A DNA stretch of 34,673 nucleotides from an uncultured Microbacteriaceae bacterium (lineage in GTDB: Bacteria > Actinomycetota > Actinomycetes > Actinomycetales > Microbacteriaceae). How positions within the stretch are numbered: the stretch's first letter is position 1; each line of letters starts with the position of its first letter. The position numbers were made by a program, and so were the translations under genes. The DNA is taken from positions 1 to 34,673 of the forward strand of contig CAIWRM010000067.1 in assembly GCA_903915075.1 (NCBI GenBank), in the 5' to 3' direction. Shown here piece after piece: positions 1 through 5,147 of this stretch. The notes beneath the pieces were generated by a model. It was given only the letters and a program-made list of their open reading frames with translations. It had not been told where the DNA came from and ran no database searches.

Positions 1-164
1 GGCATCTCGTTCTCGGCCTTGAGGACGCCCACCTGCTGCGTGCACTTGAATCGTTCGGCGAGCAGGTGAATGAGCGCAGCGTCGATGTTGTCGATGCTCT
101 GGCGCAGCGATGCCAATCGCGCCACGGCCTCGGCGCTCATGGTCTCCCCGGAATCTGCGGTCAT
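1..164 (-). CDS. Chorismate mutase (AroQ type), N-terminal part
   Basis: The reverse strand read from an ATG at 164-162 gives about 54 residues before the left edge. After a short variable leader the sequence contains LRQSIDNIDAALIHLLAERF and then KCTQQVGVLKAENEMP. This matches the first helix of AroQ-type chorismate mutases, including the Arg of LRQSIDNID and the Lys of the VGVLK-type segment that contact the substrate in that family. The enzyme converts chorismate to prephenate for Phe/Tyr synthesis in the cytoplasm. The C-terminal half is outside the window, so a fusion partner cannot be excluded. A second in-frame ATG lies at 140-138. The box TAAAGT 7 bases before the first ATG suggests a leaderless transcript and favours the first start. 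Confidence 0.85.
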   Translation of the reverse strand, partial: MTADSGETMSAEAVARLASLRQSIDNIDAALIHLLAERFKCTQQVGVLKAENEM

Positions 165-171
165 GTTCCAA

Positions 172-177
172 ACTTTA
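172..177 (-). promoter_or_regulatory. -10 box of the chorismate mutase gene
   Basis: TAAAGT on the minus strand ends 7 bases before the ATG at 164. It fits the actinobacterial TANNNT hexamer at a leaderless distance, and no Shine-Dalgarno is visible. Confidence 0.45.
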
Positions 178-194
178 GCGCAGGCACGCGAACA

Positions 195-220
195 CGGGGC
201 CCCGGTTGACCGAGACCCCG
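195..220 (-). terminator. Possible hairpin downstream of the acidic-protein gene
   Basis: Positions 195-206 and 209-220 pair along about 11-12 bp with two G-U wobbles (CGGGG...CCCCG ends). The hairpin lies about 30 bases past the stop of the minus-strand gene at 251-808. No T-run follows, so it could be a factor-assisted terminator or chance in GC-rich DNA. Confidence 0.35.
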
Positions 221-250
221 CGTTCTTGGCTTTCGCGTTGTGGCTGGCGC

Positions 251-808
251 CTAGTTGTCGTCGCGGCTATTTCCGCGACCCGAGTTAGACGAACCAGAGT
301 TGACCTCGTCGTCGTCACTGTCTTCGTCGTCACGGCCGTCACGGCCGTCGGAGTCATCGGGGCTGTCGGAGTCATCACTGCTGTCGTCAGAATCCGAGTC
401 GTCTAATCCGTCGTGATTACTGCCGTGGTCGTTGTCACTGTCGCAGTCTTCGGTTTCCGTGCTGTCCGACACGTCATCGGTCGATTCGTCTGCCTCGTCA
501 ATGTCGTCGTCATCAACGCACACGACCGGGTCAGTGATTGGCGTGGGTTCTGGAGAAGGTGTGGGATCGGGGATTGTCGAGGGGTCCGTGGGAAGACCGG
601 TCGCCGGATCGATGGGCCAACCCGTCGCGGGGTCTATGACCCAGCCCGTGGTGGCGTCAATCAGTTGACCGGTGGTGGGATCCGTGACAGGAACGACAAC
701 GGATGCGGGTGCAACAAAACCGGCGCTCTGAGCCATCGCGAAACCCCCACCCACAAGGGCAAGGGGCACTGAGACAAGAAGGGCGGTCCGAAGGAGTGAT
801 TTATTCAT
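251..808 (-). CDS. Exported acidic Asp/Ser-rich protein with DPxTG repeats
   Basis: No family is recognised. The 185-residue product starts with a signal peptide (MNKSLLRTALLVSVPLALVG, with cleavage plausible near AMAQS around residue 27). Residues 43-78 hold four to five copies of an eight-residue unit (DPTTGQLI, DATTGWVI, DPATGWPI, DPATGLPT, DPST). A Pro/Thr linker follows at about 79-94. From residue 99 to the end the sequence is mainly Asp and Ser with some Glu and Gly, strongly negative and surely disordered. Cys97 and Cys122 flank the start of this tail and could form a disulfide outside the cell. No LPXTG sorting signal or C-terminal membrane anchor is seen. Role unknown; cation binding or a surface polyelectrolyte is only inference. 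The ATG is preceded by TAGCGT at 6 bases, indicating a leaderless transcript. Confidence 0.75.
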   Translation of the reverse strand: MNKSLLRTALLVSVPLALVGGGFAMAQSAGFVAPASVVVPVTDPTTGQLIDATTGWVIDPATGWPIDPATGLPTDPSTIPDPTPSPEPTPITDPVVCVDDDDIDEADESTDDVSDSTETEDCDSDNDHGSNHDGLDDSDSDDSSDDSDSPDDSDGRDGRDDEDSDDDEVNSGSSNSGRGNSRDDN

Positions 809-814
809 AACCCC

Positions 815-820
815 ACGCTA
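815..820 (-). promoter_or_regulatory. -10 box of the 185-residue acidic protein gene
   Basis: TAGCGT on the minus strand lies 6 bases before the ATG at 808. No Shine-Dalgarno can fit, so a leaderless mRNA is the simplest reading. Confidence 0.5.
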
Positions 821-923
821 TGAAGCCGCGATGTCATTTTTAGCCGACGGTCGGTCGCCAATTGCCCACAAACGAGTAAAGGTTCGTCGAAGAAGAACGA
901 GCGGGCAGGTTTATTGTTTGCGC

Positions 924-1613
924 CTAAACCTGAGCGGCGCGAGTGCGCGTGGGCACAACAAACTCATTGCCCGGCAAACTGTAGGCGTCATCGTCGACGC
1001 GTCCAGAGTCTTCGTCTTCGCCTTCGCCTTCGTCTTTCTCATCTTCGTTGTCGGAATTGCCCGAATCGGAGTCTTCGTCTGAGTTTTCATCGCGAGGACC
1101 TGAGCCCGACCCGCCCTCGGGCGAATCGTCGGAGCTGTCTTCGTCCGAGATCCCCCCATCCGAGCCGTCCTCGTCCAGGCCGTCGTCAAGAGAGCCCTCT
1201 TCGTTCACGCTCTCGTCGCTCGGGTCAAGACCATCGGGATCCTCGTCAGACGAGTTCCCCGAGTCGTTGCGGGAAAGAGCAGATGCACTCCAGGCCGATA
1301 CCTGTAACTCACAGTGCGCCTTGAAGACGTCGGCGAGACCCGAGATGAGGGCGGGGTTTTCCATGAGACTGGCAATCTGCGCACTGATCGTGGGGTCAAT
1401 CACGCCGGCCTCAACGGCATCGGCCAGTTGCCCCGTCAACTCTTGCGAGAGTTCCTGCGATACATCGTCAAGTCCAAGACTTCCCAGGGTGGCAGAGACC
1501 AACGCCTGCGCAATGGCGTCACTCGTCGCGGCGTTAGCGGGGTGCGCCACGAACGACACAGAAACACTCACGCCGAGTGCGATACCGATGGCGGCCAAGG
1601 TTTTGCGCATCAT
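924..1613 (-). CDS. Exported protein with helical domain and acidic tail
   Basis: This is an unrecognised protein of 229 residues. A signal peptide covers about residues 1-28 (hydrophobic core followed by HPANA-AT). An Ala/Leu-rich, probably helical domain of about 80 residues follows (DAIAQALVSATLGSLGLDD to FKAHCELQVSAW). A long Asp/Glu/Ser/Gly tail runs from about residue 115 to 205, and the protein ends with a less charged segment containing SLPGNEFVVPTRTRAA. The start ATG overlaps the stop of the upstream lipoprotein gene as ATGA at 1610-1613, so the two are translationally coupled. A second ATG directly follows and could be used instead. The layout (signal peptide, small domain, acidic tail) resembles the neighbour at 251-808, although sequence identity outside the acidic runs is not evident. 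The function is unknown. Confidence 0.75.
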   Translation of the reverse strand: MMRKTLAAIGIALGVSVSVSFVAHPANAATSDAIAQALVSATLGSLGLDDVSQELSQELTGQLADAVEAGVIDPTISAQIASLMENPALISGLADVFKAHCELQVSAWSASALSRNDSGNSSDEDPDGLDPSDESVNEEGSLDDGLDEDGSDGGISDEDSSDDSPEGGSGSGPRDENSDEDSDSGNSDNEDEKDEGEGEDEDSGRVDDDAYSLPGNEFVVPTRTRAAQV

Positions 1614-1924
1614 TTGCTTGCCACCGCCACGTCTTTTTCAGCCCGCTGGCGCCAGAGTTCGAGGGTGTTGGCAAGAATCGAGTCGCGAGCCTCATTGACC
1701 TCGGCCGACGAAACAATGTTCTTCTCGACCGCGGCCTGAATATCACCGGATGAAAGGATCACGGCCGCCAGAAGCACTCCGTCTGCAGTCACGTTGTCGG
1801 GCAACTGGTCGGTGAGGATATTGCCCGATTCAACGCCTGAGGGCAATGAGCACGCCGCGAGGGTTCCTGTGGCAATGGCAATCGCGCCAACGGCCACAAG
1901 AACCCCGGTCACAATCTTGCGCAT
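1610..1924 (-). CDS. Small lipoprotein of unknown function
   Basis: The 104-residue product has a lipoprotein signal: MRKIVTGVLV, a hydrophobic core, then the lipobox LAAC with Cys25 as the lipidated residue. The mature part is about 80 residues, probably helical, and contains AAVEKNIVSSAEVNEARDSI, which weakly echoes the AVEAGVIDPTISAQIASLM segment of the co-transcribed 229-residue protein. It is the first gene of a two-gene operon, coupled by a 4-bp stop/start overlap. The ATG has TACGCT 6 bases upstream and no Shine-Dalgarno, suggesting leaderless translation. No family or function is recognised. Confidence 0.75.
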   Translation of the reverse strand: MRKIVTGVLVAVGAIAIATGTLAACSLPSGVESGNILTDQLPDNVTADGVLLAAVILSSGDIQAAVEKNIVSSAEVNEARDSILANTLELWRQRAEKDVAVASK

Positions 1925-1930
1925 CCTTAC

Positions 1931-1936
1931 AGCGTA
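1931..1936 (-). promoter_or_regulatory. -10 box of the lipoprotein operon
   Basis: TACGCT on the minus strand lies 6 bases before the ATG at 1924 and fits TANNNT at leaderless spacing. Confidence 0.5.
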
Positions 1937-2005
1937 AGGGCATTACGCAACAGCGGTCTCTCGGCAACGTCAAAGATTTGACCAAGAATTTGTTTTGGGG
2001 CCCAG

Positions 2006-2018
2006 CCCGATTTTCGGG
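2006..2018 (-). terminator. Weak hairpin downstream of purA
   Basis: CCCGA, a TTT loop and TCGGG form a 5-bp stem about 57 bases beyond the purA stop. On the minus strand it is followed by A/T-rich sequence, but there is no clear T-run. Confidence 0.25.
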
Positions 2019-2042
2019 ACCGATTCCGCGATGTAGATCACT

Positions 2043-2084
2043 TCGCCTAAATCAGGTCGTCTAAATTGGGTCGCCTAAACCAGC
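2043..2084. repeat. 14-bp tandem repeat, three copies, across the purA stop
   Basis: Three contiguous 14-bp units are visible: TCGCCTAAATCAGG, TCGTCTAAATTGGG and TCGCCTAAACCAGC. The third unit contains the purA stop codon (CTA at 2075-2077, TAG on the minus strand). Each unit carries the same CTAAA core, so the minus strand has a TAG every 14 bases. Because 14 is not a multiple of 3, the three TAGs fall in three different reading frames. Confidence 0.85.
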
Positions 2085-3358
2085 TCGTGACGCACCACAA
2101 TGGCATCGCGGGCCGGGCCAACGCCGATCGCAGAGAAACGTGCACCACTCATCGCCTCAAGCGCGAGCACGTACTTCTGCGCGTTGGCGGGGAGGTCGTC
2201 GAACGAGCGCGCTCCCGTGATGTCTTCACTCCAGCCGGGGAAGTTTTCGTAAATCGGGGTGGCGTGATGAAAGTCGCTCTGGTTCACCGGAACCTCATCA
2301 ACCCGTGTGCCGTCGACGTCGTAGGCCACACAGACGGGAATCTGATCGAGACCCGTCAGCACATCCAGTTTGGTCAGCACGAAGTCGGTCACGCCATTAA
2401 TGCGCGTGGTATACCGCGCGATCGGGGCGTCGAACCATCCGCACCGACGAGGGCGTCCGGTGGTGGTACCAAACTCGAAACCCTTGGAGCGCAGGTACTC
2501 GCCCGAATCATCGAACAGCTCGGTGGGGAAAGGTCCCGAGCCAACGCGAGTCGTGTACGCCTTGACGACGGCAATCACGCGATCAACACGGGTGGGCCCG
2601 ATTCCCGATCCGGTGAGCGCACCGCCGCTGGTGGCATTCGACGACGTGACAAAGGGGTACGTTCCGTGGTCCACGTCGAGCATGGTGGCCTGGCCGCCCT
2701 CAAAAAGCACCGTTTTGTTTGCATCGAGCGCGTTATTGAGCTCGAGCGAGGTGTCACACACCATGGGGCGCAAGCGCTCGGCATACGACATGAGCTCGGT
2801 GACCACCTCGTCGGCCGTGATGGCGCGACGGTTGTAAATCTTGACGAGAAGGTGATTCTTAACCTCAAGGGCGCTCTCCACCTTCTGGCGCAGGATTCCC
2901 TCGTCAAAGATGTCCTGCACGCGAATGCCCACGCGATTAATCTTGTCGGCGTAGGTGGGGCCGATGCCGCGACCGGTGGTGCCAATCTGGCGCTTACCCA
3001 AGAAGCGTTCGGTCACCTTATCGAGTGTGCGGTGGTAGCTCGTGATGAGGTGCGCGTTGGCGCTCACGCGAAGCCGGGAGACGTCGATGCCTCGAGACGC
3101 GAGAGCCGAAATTTCGCCAAAGAGCACCTCGAGATCAATGACCACGCCGTTCGAAATCACGGGCGTCACGCCGGGCGTGAGGATGCCCGAGGGCAGCAGG
3201 TGAAGGGCGTACTTCTCGTCGCCAATAACGACCGTGTGGCCGGCATTGTTACCGCCGTTGAACTTGACCACGTAGTCGATACGGCTGGCCAAGAGGTCGG
3301 TGGCCTTGCCCTTACCCTCGTCGCCCCACTGGGCACCCACGAGAACGATTGCTGGCAT
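2075..3358 (-). CDS. purA: Adenylosuccinate synthetase
   Basis: PurA joins IMP and aspartate using GTP to make adenylosuccinate, the first committed step from IMP to AMP. The 427-residue product is a normal length. It has the N-terminal GTP loop GDEGKGK at 12-18 with catalytic Asp13, NNAGHTV with His41, and the signature [14 protein letters not shown] at about 124-137. I placed the start at the ATG at 3358-3356 ([15 protein letters not shown]) rather than the longer in-frame ATG, because family members begin there. It is preceded on the same strand by the TrmH-like gene, with about 130 bases and a dispersed repeat between them, so it probably has its own promoter. The stop codon lies inside a 14-bp tandem repeat. 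Confidence 0.97.
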
Positions 3359-3430
3359 GACGATTCCCCTCGTCGATGTGTCGGCGAAGCGCAAGACGCA
3401 ACCTGCCAGTACCTGATTCTATCTCGCTTC

Positions 3431-3476
3431 TCGCCGGTCGAGCTTGTCGAGGCCTGATTTCGACAAGCTCAATCGA
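3431..3476. repeat. Dispersed intergenic repeat, short form
   Basis: The element begins TCGCCGGTCGAG and ends TGATTTCGACAAGCTCAATC. Both ends are found in reverse orientation at 15196-15257. Its arms GTCGAGCTTGTCGA and TCGACAAGCTC pair into an 11-bp or longer hairpin, so it may also fold in RNA. It lies in the purA/TrmH gap and stops just before the TrmH stop codon. Confidence 0.75.
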
Positions 3477-3487
3477 CGGCAGCGAGC

Positions 3488-4132
3488 TCAATCAACAAAG
3501 GCGTGCTGCAGTACCCACGAATGCATGGTGACGGCGGCAGCGGCCGACGCATTGATGGATCGCGTCGATCCAAACTGCGTGATCTCGATCACGTTGGTCG
3601 CCAGCGCAAGCGCTTCGGGCGACAAACCCGGACCCTCCTGGCCAAAAAGCATGAGGCATTTCTCGGGCCACACAAACGTTTCGATGGGCACACAGCCGGG
3701 AACATTGTCGATGGCCAGCACGGGAATGTTGTTCTCCGCTGCCCACACACCCAGGTCTGCCACGGTTTCGTGGTGCAGCACGTGTTGATATCGGTCCGTC
3801 ACCATGGCGCCGCGTTTGTTCCAGCGCTTTCGCCCGACGATGTGCACGGTGGCCGCTCCGAAGGCATTCGCGCTGCGCACGATCGACCCGATGTTCATGT
3901 CGTGCTGCCAGTTCTCAATGGCCACGTGAAACCCGTGTCGACGCGCATCGAGATCGGCCACAATCGCGTCCATGCGCCAGTACCGATAGCGGTCAATGAC
4001 GTTGCGGGTATCGCCGTCGCGCAGCAGTTCTGGATCAAACTCGGCACCCTCGGGCCACTCGCCCACCCACGGGCCAACGCCAGAAGTGCTGAGCTCGTGC
4101 GTCGGGGCAGGAATATGCTCGGGAGTATCCAC
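3488..4132 (-). CDS. TrmH/SpoU-family RNA 2'-O-methyltransferase
   Basis: The 214-residue product is a SPOUT methyltransferase. The three SpoU motifs are present: NIGSIVRSANAFGA from residue 80 (motif 1, with Arg86), LFGQEGPGLS at 162-171 (motif 2, floor of the SAM-binding knot) and STRSINASAAAA from 189 (motif 3, with Asn194). These enzymes methylate a ribose 2'-OH in tRNA or rRNA. Which RNA is modified cannot be told. An N-terminal extension of about 60 residues precedes the knot. The start is GTG at 4132-4130, supported by TAGATT 6 bases upstream and no Shine-Dalgarno. It is divergent from the oxidoreductase gene at 4182. Confidence 0.9.
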   Translation of the reverse strand: MDTPEHIPAPTHELSTSGVGPWVGEWPEGAEFDPELLRDGDTRNVIDRYRYWRMDAIVADLDARRHGFHVAIENWQHDMNIGSIVRSANAFGAATVHIVGRKRWNKRGAMVTDRYQHVLHHETVADLGVWAAENNIPVLAIDNVPGCVPIETFVWPEKCLMLFGQEGPGLSPEALALATNVIEITQFGSTRSINASAAAAVTMHSWVLQHAFVD

Positions 4133-4181: not shown

Positions 4182-5147
4182 GTGTCTCACGCCATCGTTA
4201 TCAATCACCCCGGCGACTCGTCGGTTCTCAACTACCGCGAGGTGGCCGACCCCGTGGCCGCGCCCGGTGAAGTGTTGATTCGCACCACCGCAATCGGCAT
4301 CAACTACATCGACGTTTACCACCGCGAGGGAAAGTACCCGGTTGACTACCCGTTCACGCCGGGCAAGGAAGCTGTGGGAATCATCGTGGCGCTCGGTGAG
4401 GGCGTCACGGGTCTTGCCGTGGGCGATCGGATTGCCACCACGGAGGCGGCCCGTGCCTATGCCGAGCTGGTCGTCGTTCCCGCTGAGGGCGCGCTTCCCG
4501 TTCCCGCCGAACTCTCGGACGACGTTGCCGTTGCCCTACCGCTTCAGGGCATGACCGCGCACTACCTCGTGAACTCCAGCTTCTCCCTCGAGGCCGGTCA
4601 GACCTGCATTGTGCACGCGGCCGCCGGTGGCGTGGGGCTGCTACTAACGCAGATGGCTAAAGCAAAGGGCGCGCGCGTCATCGCCACGGTGTCGACTCCC
4701 GAAAAGGAGATTCTGGCCCGCGAAGCCGGAGCCGATGTGGTGCTGGGATACGACGACTTTTCGGCACAGGCGCGAGAACTCACCGACGGCCTCGGCGTTC
4801 ACGTGGTCTACGACGGCGTGGGCAAGACCACCTTTGATGCGTCTCTCGCCGCGCTTCGGGTTCGGGGTGTTCTGGTGTCGTTCGGCTCGGCATCCGGTGC
4901 CGTGGCGCCTCTTGACGTGTCACGCTTAGCCCAGGGAGGTTCGCTCACCGTGACGCGGCCCACACTCTGGAGCTTTCTGCAAACACCCGAAGAGCGGGCC
5001 TGGCGCTGGGGCGAGGTGAGCGCGGCCGCAGCAAGCGGAAAACTGCACGTGCGGGTGGGAGCCGTCTTCCCGCTCAGCGATACCGCTGGCGCCCACGATG
5101 CTCTCACCGGTCGTCACACCACCGGCAAGGTTGTGCTGATTCCCTAG
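4182..5147 (+). CDS. NADPH:quinone oxidoreductase (MDR family)
   Basis: This 321-residue protein belongs to the medium-chain dehydrogenase/reductase superfamily, quinone oxidoreductase (Qor) type. Residues 1-125 form the catalytic GroES-like domain (AIGINYIDVYHREGKYP, then FTPGKEAVGIIV). The nucleotide-binding site is AAAGGVGLLLTQMAK from about residue 146. The catalytic and structural zinc cysteines of alcohol dehydrogenases are absent, as expected for Qor. Such enzymes reduce quinones or activated alkenes with NADPH in the cytoplasm, and the real substrate is unknown. The start is GTG at 4182, with GGAAGGA at 4162-4168 as Shine-Dalgarno, although the 13-base spacing is long. It converges with pyrE, with 33 bases between the stops. 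Confidence 0.92.
   Translation: MSHAIVINHPGDSSVLNYREVADPVAAPGEVLIRTTAIGINYIDVYHREGKYPVDYPFTPGKEAVGIIVALGEGVTGLAVGDRIATTEAARAYAELVVVPAEGALPVPAELSDDVAVALPLQGMTAHYLVNSSFSLEAGQTCIVHAAAGGVGLLLTQMAKAKGARVIATVSTPEKEILAREAGADVVLGYDDFSAQARELTDGLGVHVVYDGVGKTTFDASLAALRVRGVLVSFGSASGAVAPLDVSRLAQGGSLTVTRPTLWSFLQTPEERAWRWGEVSAAAASGKLHVRVGAVFPLSDTAGAHDALTGRHTTGKVVLIP

Follow-up and report, generated by a model that had tools for sequence, protein, structure and literature searches.

The genes considered here, denoted A, B and C, have different closest counterparts among the described systems. Protein C resembles the bacterial lipoproteins with a type II signal peptide in having a lipobox with an invariant cysteine. 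Protein A, with its four tandem octamers at the DPxTG spacing, is similar to the OCRE domain (Pfam PF17780, E 0.0053); the OCRE domain of the eukaryotic protein RBM5 is described in one report (PMC5127646) as binding proline-rich tails. The Asp/Ser-rich composition of A also recalls the SD-repeat adhesins (ClfB/Sdr MSCRAMM, NF033845). Loops of the thrombospondin type 3 or EF-hand-like kind have a parallel in the relatives of the locus: the B proteins of another clade contain one of the DSDGDGxPN type, and the A protein of a sister species (G004) contains two. The combination of C with B, or with a related exported protein that we denote D, is undescribed as far as the literature was searched, and the searches returned nothing on the A, B, C or D proteins.

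The locus and protein A

The window, that is, the whole analysed stretch of DNA (34,673 nucleotides), comes from an uncultured Microbacteriaceae bacterium and constitutes one contig of a 1.84-Mb assembly (266 contigs, 90% complete). Its features are as follows.

2075–3394, minus strand: purA, the upstream neighbour of C, on the same strand and upstream also at 19 of 24 further C loci
1610–1924, minus strand: C, lipoprotein of 104 aa from the ORF list, with a signal peptide, an LAAC lipobox and, C-terminally, a conserved helical domain (alignment of 24 sequences; model pLDDT 70)
1850–1852, minus strand: codon of the lipobox cysteine of C (Cys25), the invariant Cys of the alignments
924–1613, minus strand: B, exported acidic protein of 229 aa from the ORF list, its start overlapping the stop of C (ATGA)
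1290–1535, minus strand: helical domain of B (aa 27–108), common to the N-terminal part of D (D-only profile A3, E 1.9e-9; pN/pS 0.16–0.42, synonymous sites being near saturation in many pairs)
927–1289, minus strand: acidic low-complexity tail of B (aa 109–229), net charge −37 over aa 111–229 (pN/pS 0.19–0.78, with the same saturation)
251–808, minus strand: A, exported protein of 185 aa, outside the C–B module, with a full-length relative only in the sister species G004
587–682, minus strand: OCRE-like octamer repeats of A, DPTTGQLI/DATTGWVI/DPATGWPI/DPATGLPT (aa 43–74; Pfam OCRE E 0.0053, 17.2 bits; genome search match 596–682)
254–532, minus strand: Asp/Ser-rich tail of A with two Cys (aa 93–185), net charge −37, from the translation
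1–165, minus strand: start of the chorismate mutase gene (partial), the downstream neighbour of A (Pfam CM_2, E 8.5e-10)

The basic description given in the initial annotation stands. All three ORFs are present on the minus strand and look exported, the signal peptides and the lipobox having been read by eye from the translations; C is a lipoprotein with the LAAC lipobox whose stop codon overlaps the start codon of B as ATGA; and both A and B end in long acidic tails. An LPXTG anchor is indeed missing from the translations of A and B, as their C-terminal ends (RGNSRDDN and VVPTRTRAAQV, respectively) lack the LPXTG motif followed by a hydrophobic stretch and a positive end. Known domains are lacking as well: A, B and C all score below the Pfam and NCBIfam cut-offs, and so do their relatives (8, 10 and 8 proteins scanned). 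A search of PHROGs gave no match for A, B or C at E ≤ 0.01. The single PHROGs match of D (E 0.0032) is low and was taken as an effect of composition.

On the other hand, the promoter that had been ascribed to A alone found no support, since the sigma-70 scan of positions 1–3500 yielded no sites, against 0.8 expected in shuffled sequences. The gene is preceded by a gap of 115 nt, and a promoter of a non-sigma-70 type is conceivable. The motif TTTAG[GA]CGA occurs three times at 14-nt spacing (2043–2079, minus strand; 0.21 expected), once at the purA stop codon and twice just after it; TTTAGGCG is present also at the stop codon of B (921–928).

Protein A is built of four octamers, a Pro-rich linker and the Asp/Ser tail with two Cys. 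It has matches at E ≤ 0.01 in 12 genomes, full-length ones only in the window and G004. One of the ten other matches, L031, is apparently exported and has octamer-like repeats; the frames of the rest were read and look like chance or low complexity. No phage record matches A. Its best matches below the cut-offs, CDC45 (24.6 bits against the cut-off of 34) and ClfB, both lie on the low-complexity part. The latter match is compositional (E 7.7e-5, 20.8 bits), and as the printed cut-off of NF033845 is 999 (an "exception" model), the score decides nothing; unlike the SD-repeat adhesins, A has neither LPXTG nor a match to a second domain of that family.

The tandem periodicity of the OCRE domain is seen in A as four 8-residue units, but the score of 17.2 bits is below the gathering cut-off (24.7 bits), aromatic residues are few, and A is an exported bacterial protein. 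Matches of the OCRE type at E ≤ 0.05 were found in 26 of 297 genomes of the order, 8 of them over the cut-off. Among the 13 loci of this type that were read, L138 is apparently exported and contains several IDPATGYL-like units, similar ones occur in L156, and L139–L141, L143, L145 and L148 combine one hydrophobic segment with such octamers; L142, L144, L146 and L149 encode different proteins, and L147, the window's own locus, was set aside. There may be an unannotated bacterial octamer-repeat family in the Micrococcales.

The three genes had been proposed to form one set. This does not hold: in three of the five genomes of the genus that have the locus (G001, G002 and G003), the distance from B to the chorismate mutase gene is only about 95 nt, hence A is missing there. 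It is very unlikely that A, B and C are all parts of one surface system, even though they are adjacent, lie on the same strand and all look exported, with acidic tails in A and B. Apart from the narrow distribution of A, its gene does not overlap B and is set off by the 115-nt gap, and nothing in B or C corresponds to its octamers. Judging by these sequences, A is probably a separate, recently gained surface protein adjoining the C–B pair.

Pairing of C with B or D

Profile searches of 398 Microbacteriaceae genomes identified C in 26, B or D in 25, and both in 24. The exceptions are G409, where C is situated near a contig end, and G040 and G442, where the matches were judged weak (C with E 8.9e-4 in a 552-aa frame, and D with E 5.6e-4 in a 1071-aa frame, respectively). 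In G319 the C and B/D matches are on different contigs, C again being near a contig end. A set of 119 genomes, the window's own included, has C in 9, the N-terminal part of B in 11 and full-length A in 2; the B matches in G046 and G100 were judged to be chance after their frames had been read. All four other C-bearing genomes of the window's genus have B. The absence of C in G005 says nothing, since this genome has no purA match either.

In 19 of the 24 loci fetched outside the window, purA is upstream of C on the same strand, at about 2.5 kb in two of the 19. In the remaining five (L038, L040, L079, L081, L082) D is found beside C elsewhere than at the purA locus, and thus the unit is the pair, not the place. 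The genes adjoining D–C outside the purA locus give no functional hint by eye. In L040 (G011) the C-domain frame (4363–4530, minus strand) is 55 aa long and lacks the lipobox part, and the D frame is open; C in this genome may be broken or frame-shifted.

With the start codons of the relatives chosen to fit the signal peptide or the overlap, the C–B overlap is 4 nt in the window and in 12 of the 14 named loci, and a further locus has an overlap of 1 nt; D and C overlap in 9 of 11 loci, the junctions ranging from −11 to +24. For B of L125 the chosen start gives a junction of +11, and an upstream GTG would give −4. The co-occurrence in 24 of the 398 genomes, together with the gene overlaps, bears out the earlier proposal that the lipoprotein and the acidic protein coupled to it are a conserved set. 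Hence C with B or D is a real two-gene module.

The phylum sample (296 genomes) has C in three, namely the window's own genome, G736 and G795, the last with two loci (E 1.4e-12 to 5.3e-10). Both G736 and G795 are outside the window's class. Each of the three C loci in these two genomes has a D-like ORF that shares 4 nt with C. Among 230 frames scored with the D profile, two of these D take the top two places (E 6e-6 and 0.0017); the D of G736 is only fourth (E 0.37), which is weak profile support. W-x6-W is present in all three, and when 14 D are aligned, five columns are invariant, both Trp and one Cys among them.

Class searches with A7 gave matches at E ≤ 0.001 in 5 of 129 and 4 of 66 genomes. 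As the whole C model is matched only by G795 (of the 129) and G736 (of the 66), the module is rare in those classes. The other seven matches, in frames of 272–556 aa, are partial and cover mostly the signal-peptide half, two of them reaching model positions 76 and 85. That two genomes from other classes of actinobacteria together contain three D–C loci indicates that D–C is a deep two-gene module of actinobacteria, and its rarity there possibly reflects transfer or loss. At that, the notion of a lineage-specific system, put forward initially, applies to C–B itself, which is seen only in the Microbacteriaceae, but not to D–C.

Structure of the proteins and origin of B

The lipobox Cys of C is invariant in 24 of 24 aligned sequences, including the window (G011 was left out because of its frame without the lipobox part), and in 12 of 12 sequences of the cross-class alignment. 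The domain following it has the consensus VTAxGVVLAAVLLxxGDIxxAVxxGLVTPAEVxxARxAIxxGTLDxWRQRAE. The AlphaFold model of C has four helices at moderate confidence (pLDDT 70); alignment A6, made for the C model, comprises 22 of the 28 available sequences (the window and 27 loci), L135 and L136 having been left out as truncated or divergent, and L119 and L121–L123 without need. Comparison of the model with PDB gave 13 matches at E ≤ 10, none of them at E ≤ 0.001 (best VIA Z 3.6, rmsd 4.7, 60 aligned).

Protein D, for which the 11 D of the named loci were aligned (A5), consists of a signal peptide, a helical hairpin, three long helices (AlphaFold pLDDT 80) and a tail. The three-long-helix part carries W-x6-W and a Cys pair. 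The D model has no PDB match at E ≤ 0.001 either; the best one (VIA Z 11.7, rmsd 7.5, 128 aligned) is within the chance range for helical bundles, and the comparison bears very little on the N-terminal domain shared with B. The best E-values with PDB sequences, 0.61 for C and 0.036 for D, were not taken to mark relatives.

Homology of B and D follows from profile A3, made from D only, which detects B in all five genomes of the genus that have the locus, with E from 1.9e-9 to 3.9e-13, the window's B being at the upper end of this range. The latter retains a single Trp (W108), the D core with its W-x6-W and Cys pair being absent, and thus it is a derived member of the D/B family and not a D. It looks like a D that has lost its core. 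Since MWH-Ta3 carries D, C and B in a row, as an intermediate should, the sequences suggest a path D–C → D–C–B → C–B, of which we infer the direction.

The alignment of C with the N-terminal hairpin of B/D by hhalign yields a probability of 11%, 18% and, with larger alignments, 2%; the last score exceeds those of all 100 column shuffles and of the reversed control, and the resemblance is weak. It could reflect a duplication instead of a partnership, or nothing.

The tails of B are net negative in 15 of 15 proteins (−18 to −55). Their composition varies: G002 and G003 have tails rich in Gly-Arg-Gly-Asp and G001 has one rich in Gly/Ser, all still net acidic. In two sister species (L112, 6312–7013; L113, 5136–5837) the B tails are mostly repeated GRGDG units with many RGD triplets, in place of Asp/Ser. 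The tails of D are rich in Gly, Asn, Lys, Pro and Ser; nine of the 11 are near neutral (between −6 and +6 for the C-terminal 70 residues), and those of L124 and L134 are acidic (net −10 and −18).

The pN/pS ratio, to be read with the synonymous sites near saturation in many pairs, is 0.12–0.26 for C and 0.16–0.42 for the helical domain of B (10 pairs each, five genomes of the genus), and 0.14 for the repeat domain of A (one pair), compared with 0.04–0.06 for purA (six pairs); the tails change faster, at 0.19–0.78 in B and 0.55 in A. Because the ratios are low across the genomes of the genus, A, B and C are more than chance ORFs, and their folded parts are under purifying selection. The Asp, Ser and Glu codons of the tails are mixed, hence the acidity is not merely a nucleotide repeat. 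An acidic tail of B conserved in sequence was considered and rejected, since conservation extends to the charge only.

A calcium-binding role had also been proposed for the locus. In a related clade (L125–L133), nine of the nine B proteins have a DxDxDG-type loop at residue 90–94, and seven fit the TSP3 pattern, with 0.01–0.03 expected per protein. The bare DxDxDG motif is expected 0.10–0.29 times per B protein of this clade and so is not rare; moreover, the nine are close relatives, and the weight is on the fixed position of the loop. At that position the loop is absent from B of all five genus members and of MWH-Ta3 and from seven of seven D tested. The window's B contains one bare DEDPDG, which is at the chance level (p 0.097), and neither the TSP3 nor the EF pattern; the window's A has no such loop and neither pattern. 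Pfam TSP3 has no match in the 10 relatives scanned. One MAG has DSDGDGEITSKDVAALK in its B (L131, 705–1304), with a weak EF-hand match (E 0.052). Thus no motif points to binding of calcium by B or A of the window itself. A calcium-responsive surface system, in which Ca2+ would bind B and alter its shape or stickiness, would agree with the fixed loop in that one clade, the EF-hand match and the two loops of A in G004, but as a reading of the C–B pair we regard it as unlikely, given the absence of the loop from the genus and from D and the fact that the bare motif is not rare in acidic proteins.

Proposed role of the C–B pair and comparison with known systems

The reading we prefer, with a probability of roughly 0.45, is that C tethers B or D in the envelope, so that C and B would form one translationally coupled envelope module with a polyanionic tail, a D-derived B and a structural job. 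As the lipobox implies, C would be exported, carry a lipid on Cys25 and stay attached to the cytoplasmic membrane at its outer face. B would be exported as well; its small helical domain would dock onto the conserved helical domain of C, and its long flexible polyanionic tail would stand in the wall or at the surface. D would be the older partner of C, from which B, with its acidic tail, would descend by the loss of the helical bundle. The most likely job would be that of a protein polyanion holding cations or spacing the surface. Several observations count against this tethering and polyanion role. The tail of B keeps only its charge and is Gly-rich in three species, two of the 11 D tails are acidic, so that charge does not cleanly separate B from D, and the models of C and D have no informative fold match, with the pLDDT of C being only 70. 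The lack of the Ca loop at the corresponding place in the window's B, the weak profile support for the D of G736 and the faint resemblance of C to the B/D hairpin weigh on the same side.

Some of the same features might be read differently. C is small, predicted to be helical and nearly always located beside an exported partner, and B and D have no anchor by eye; this would also fit a chaperone-like factor, bound to the membrane, that serves assembly or quality control in the secretion of a released D or B. The Gly/Asn/Lys/Pro/Ser-rich tails of D and the acidic tails of B would then serve only for solubility. Fold and sequence searches returned nothing chaperone-specific, which proves little at the small size of C, and we hold this explanation to be somewhat doubtful.

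Returning to C as a tether, it differs from the described lipoproteins with a type II signal peptide in that its domain exceeds no Pfam or NCBIfam cut-off and has no PDB sequence relative. Two protein families, C and D/B, are defined here, none being over the cut-offs of these databases, and the module they form occurs in a minority of the Microbacteriaceae and is sparse in the rest of the phylum. Many of the carriers have small genomes (1.2–1.8 Mb) and are, we assume, freshwater plankton. If the polyanion reading is true, the module would represent a protein-based route to the negative charge of the Gram-positive envelope, and the path from D–C through D–C–B to C–B would show how such a protein arises. 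A broader and distinctly less likely scheme may be drawn from here: C–D would be an old undescribed envelope system of the Actinomycetota, a lipoprotein displaying a secreted helical protein, and in small-genome lineages D would have been duplicated and stripped to the polyanion B, with the calcium loop in one clade, partly doing what teichoic-acid-like polymers do elsewhere.
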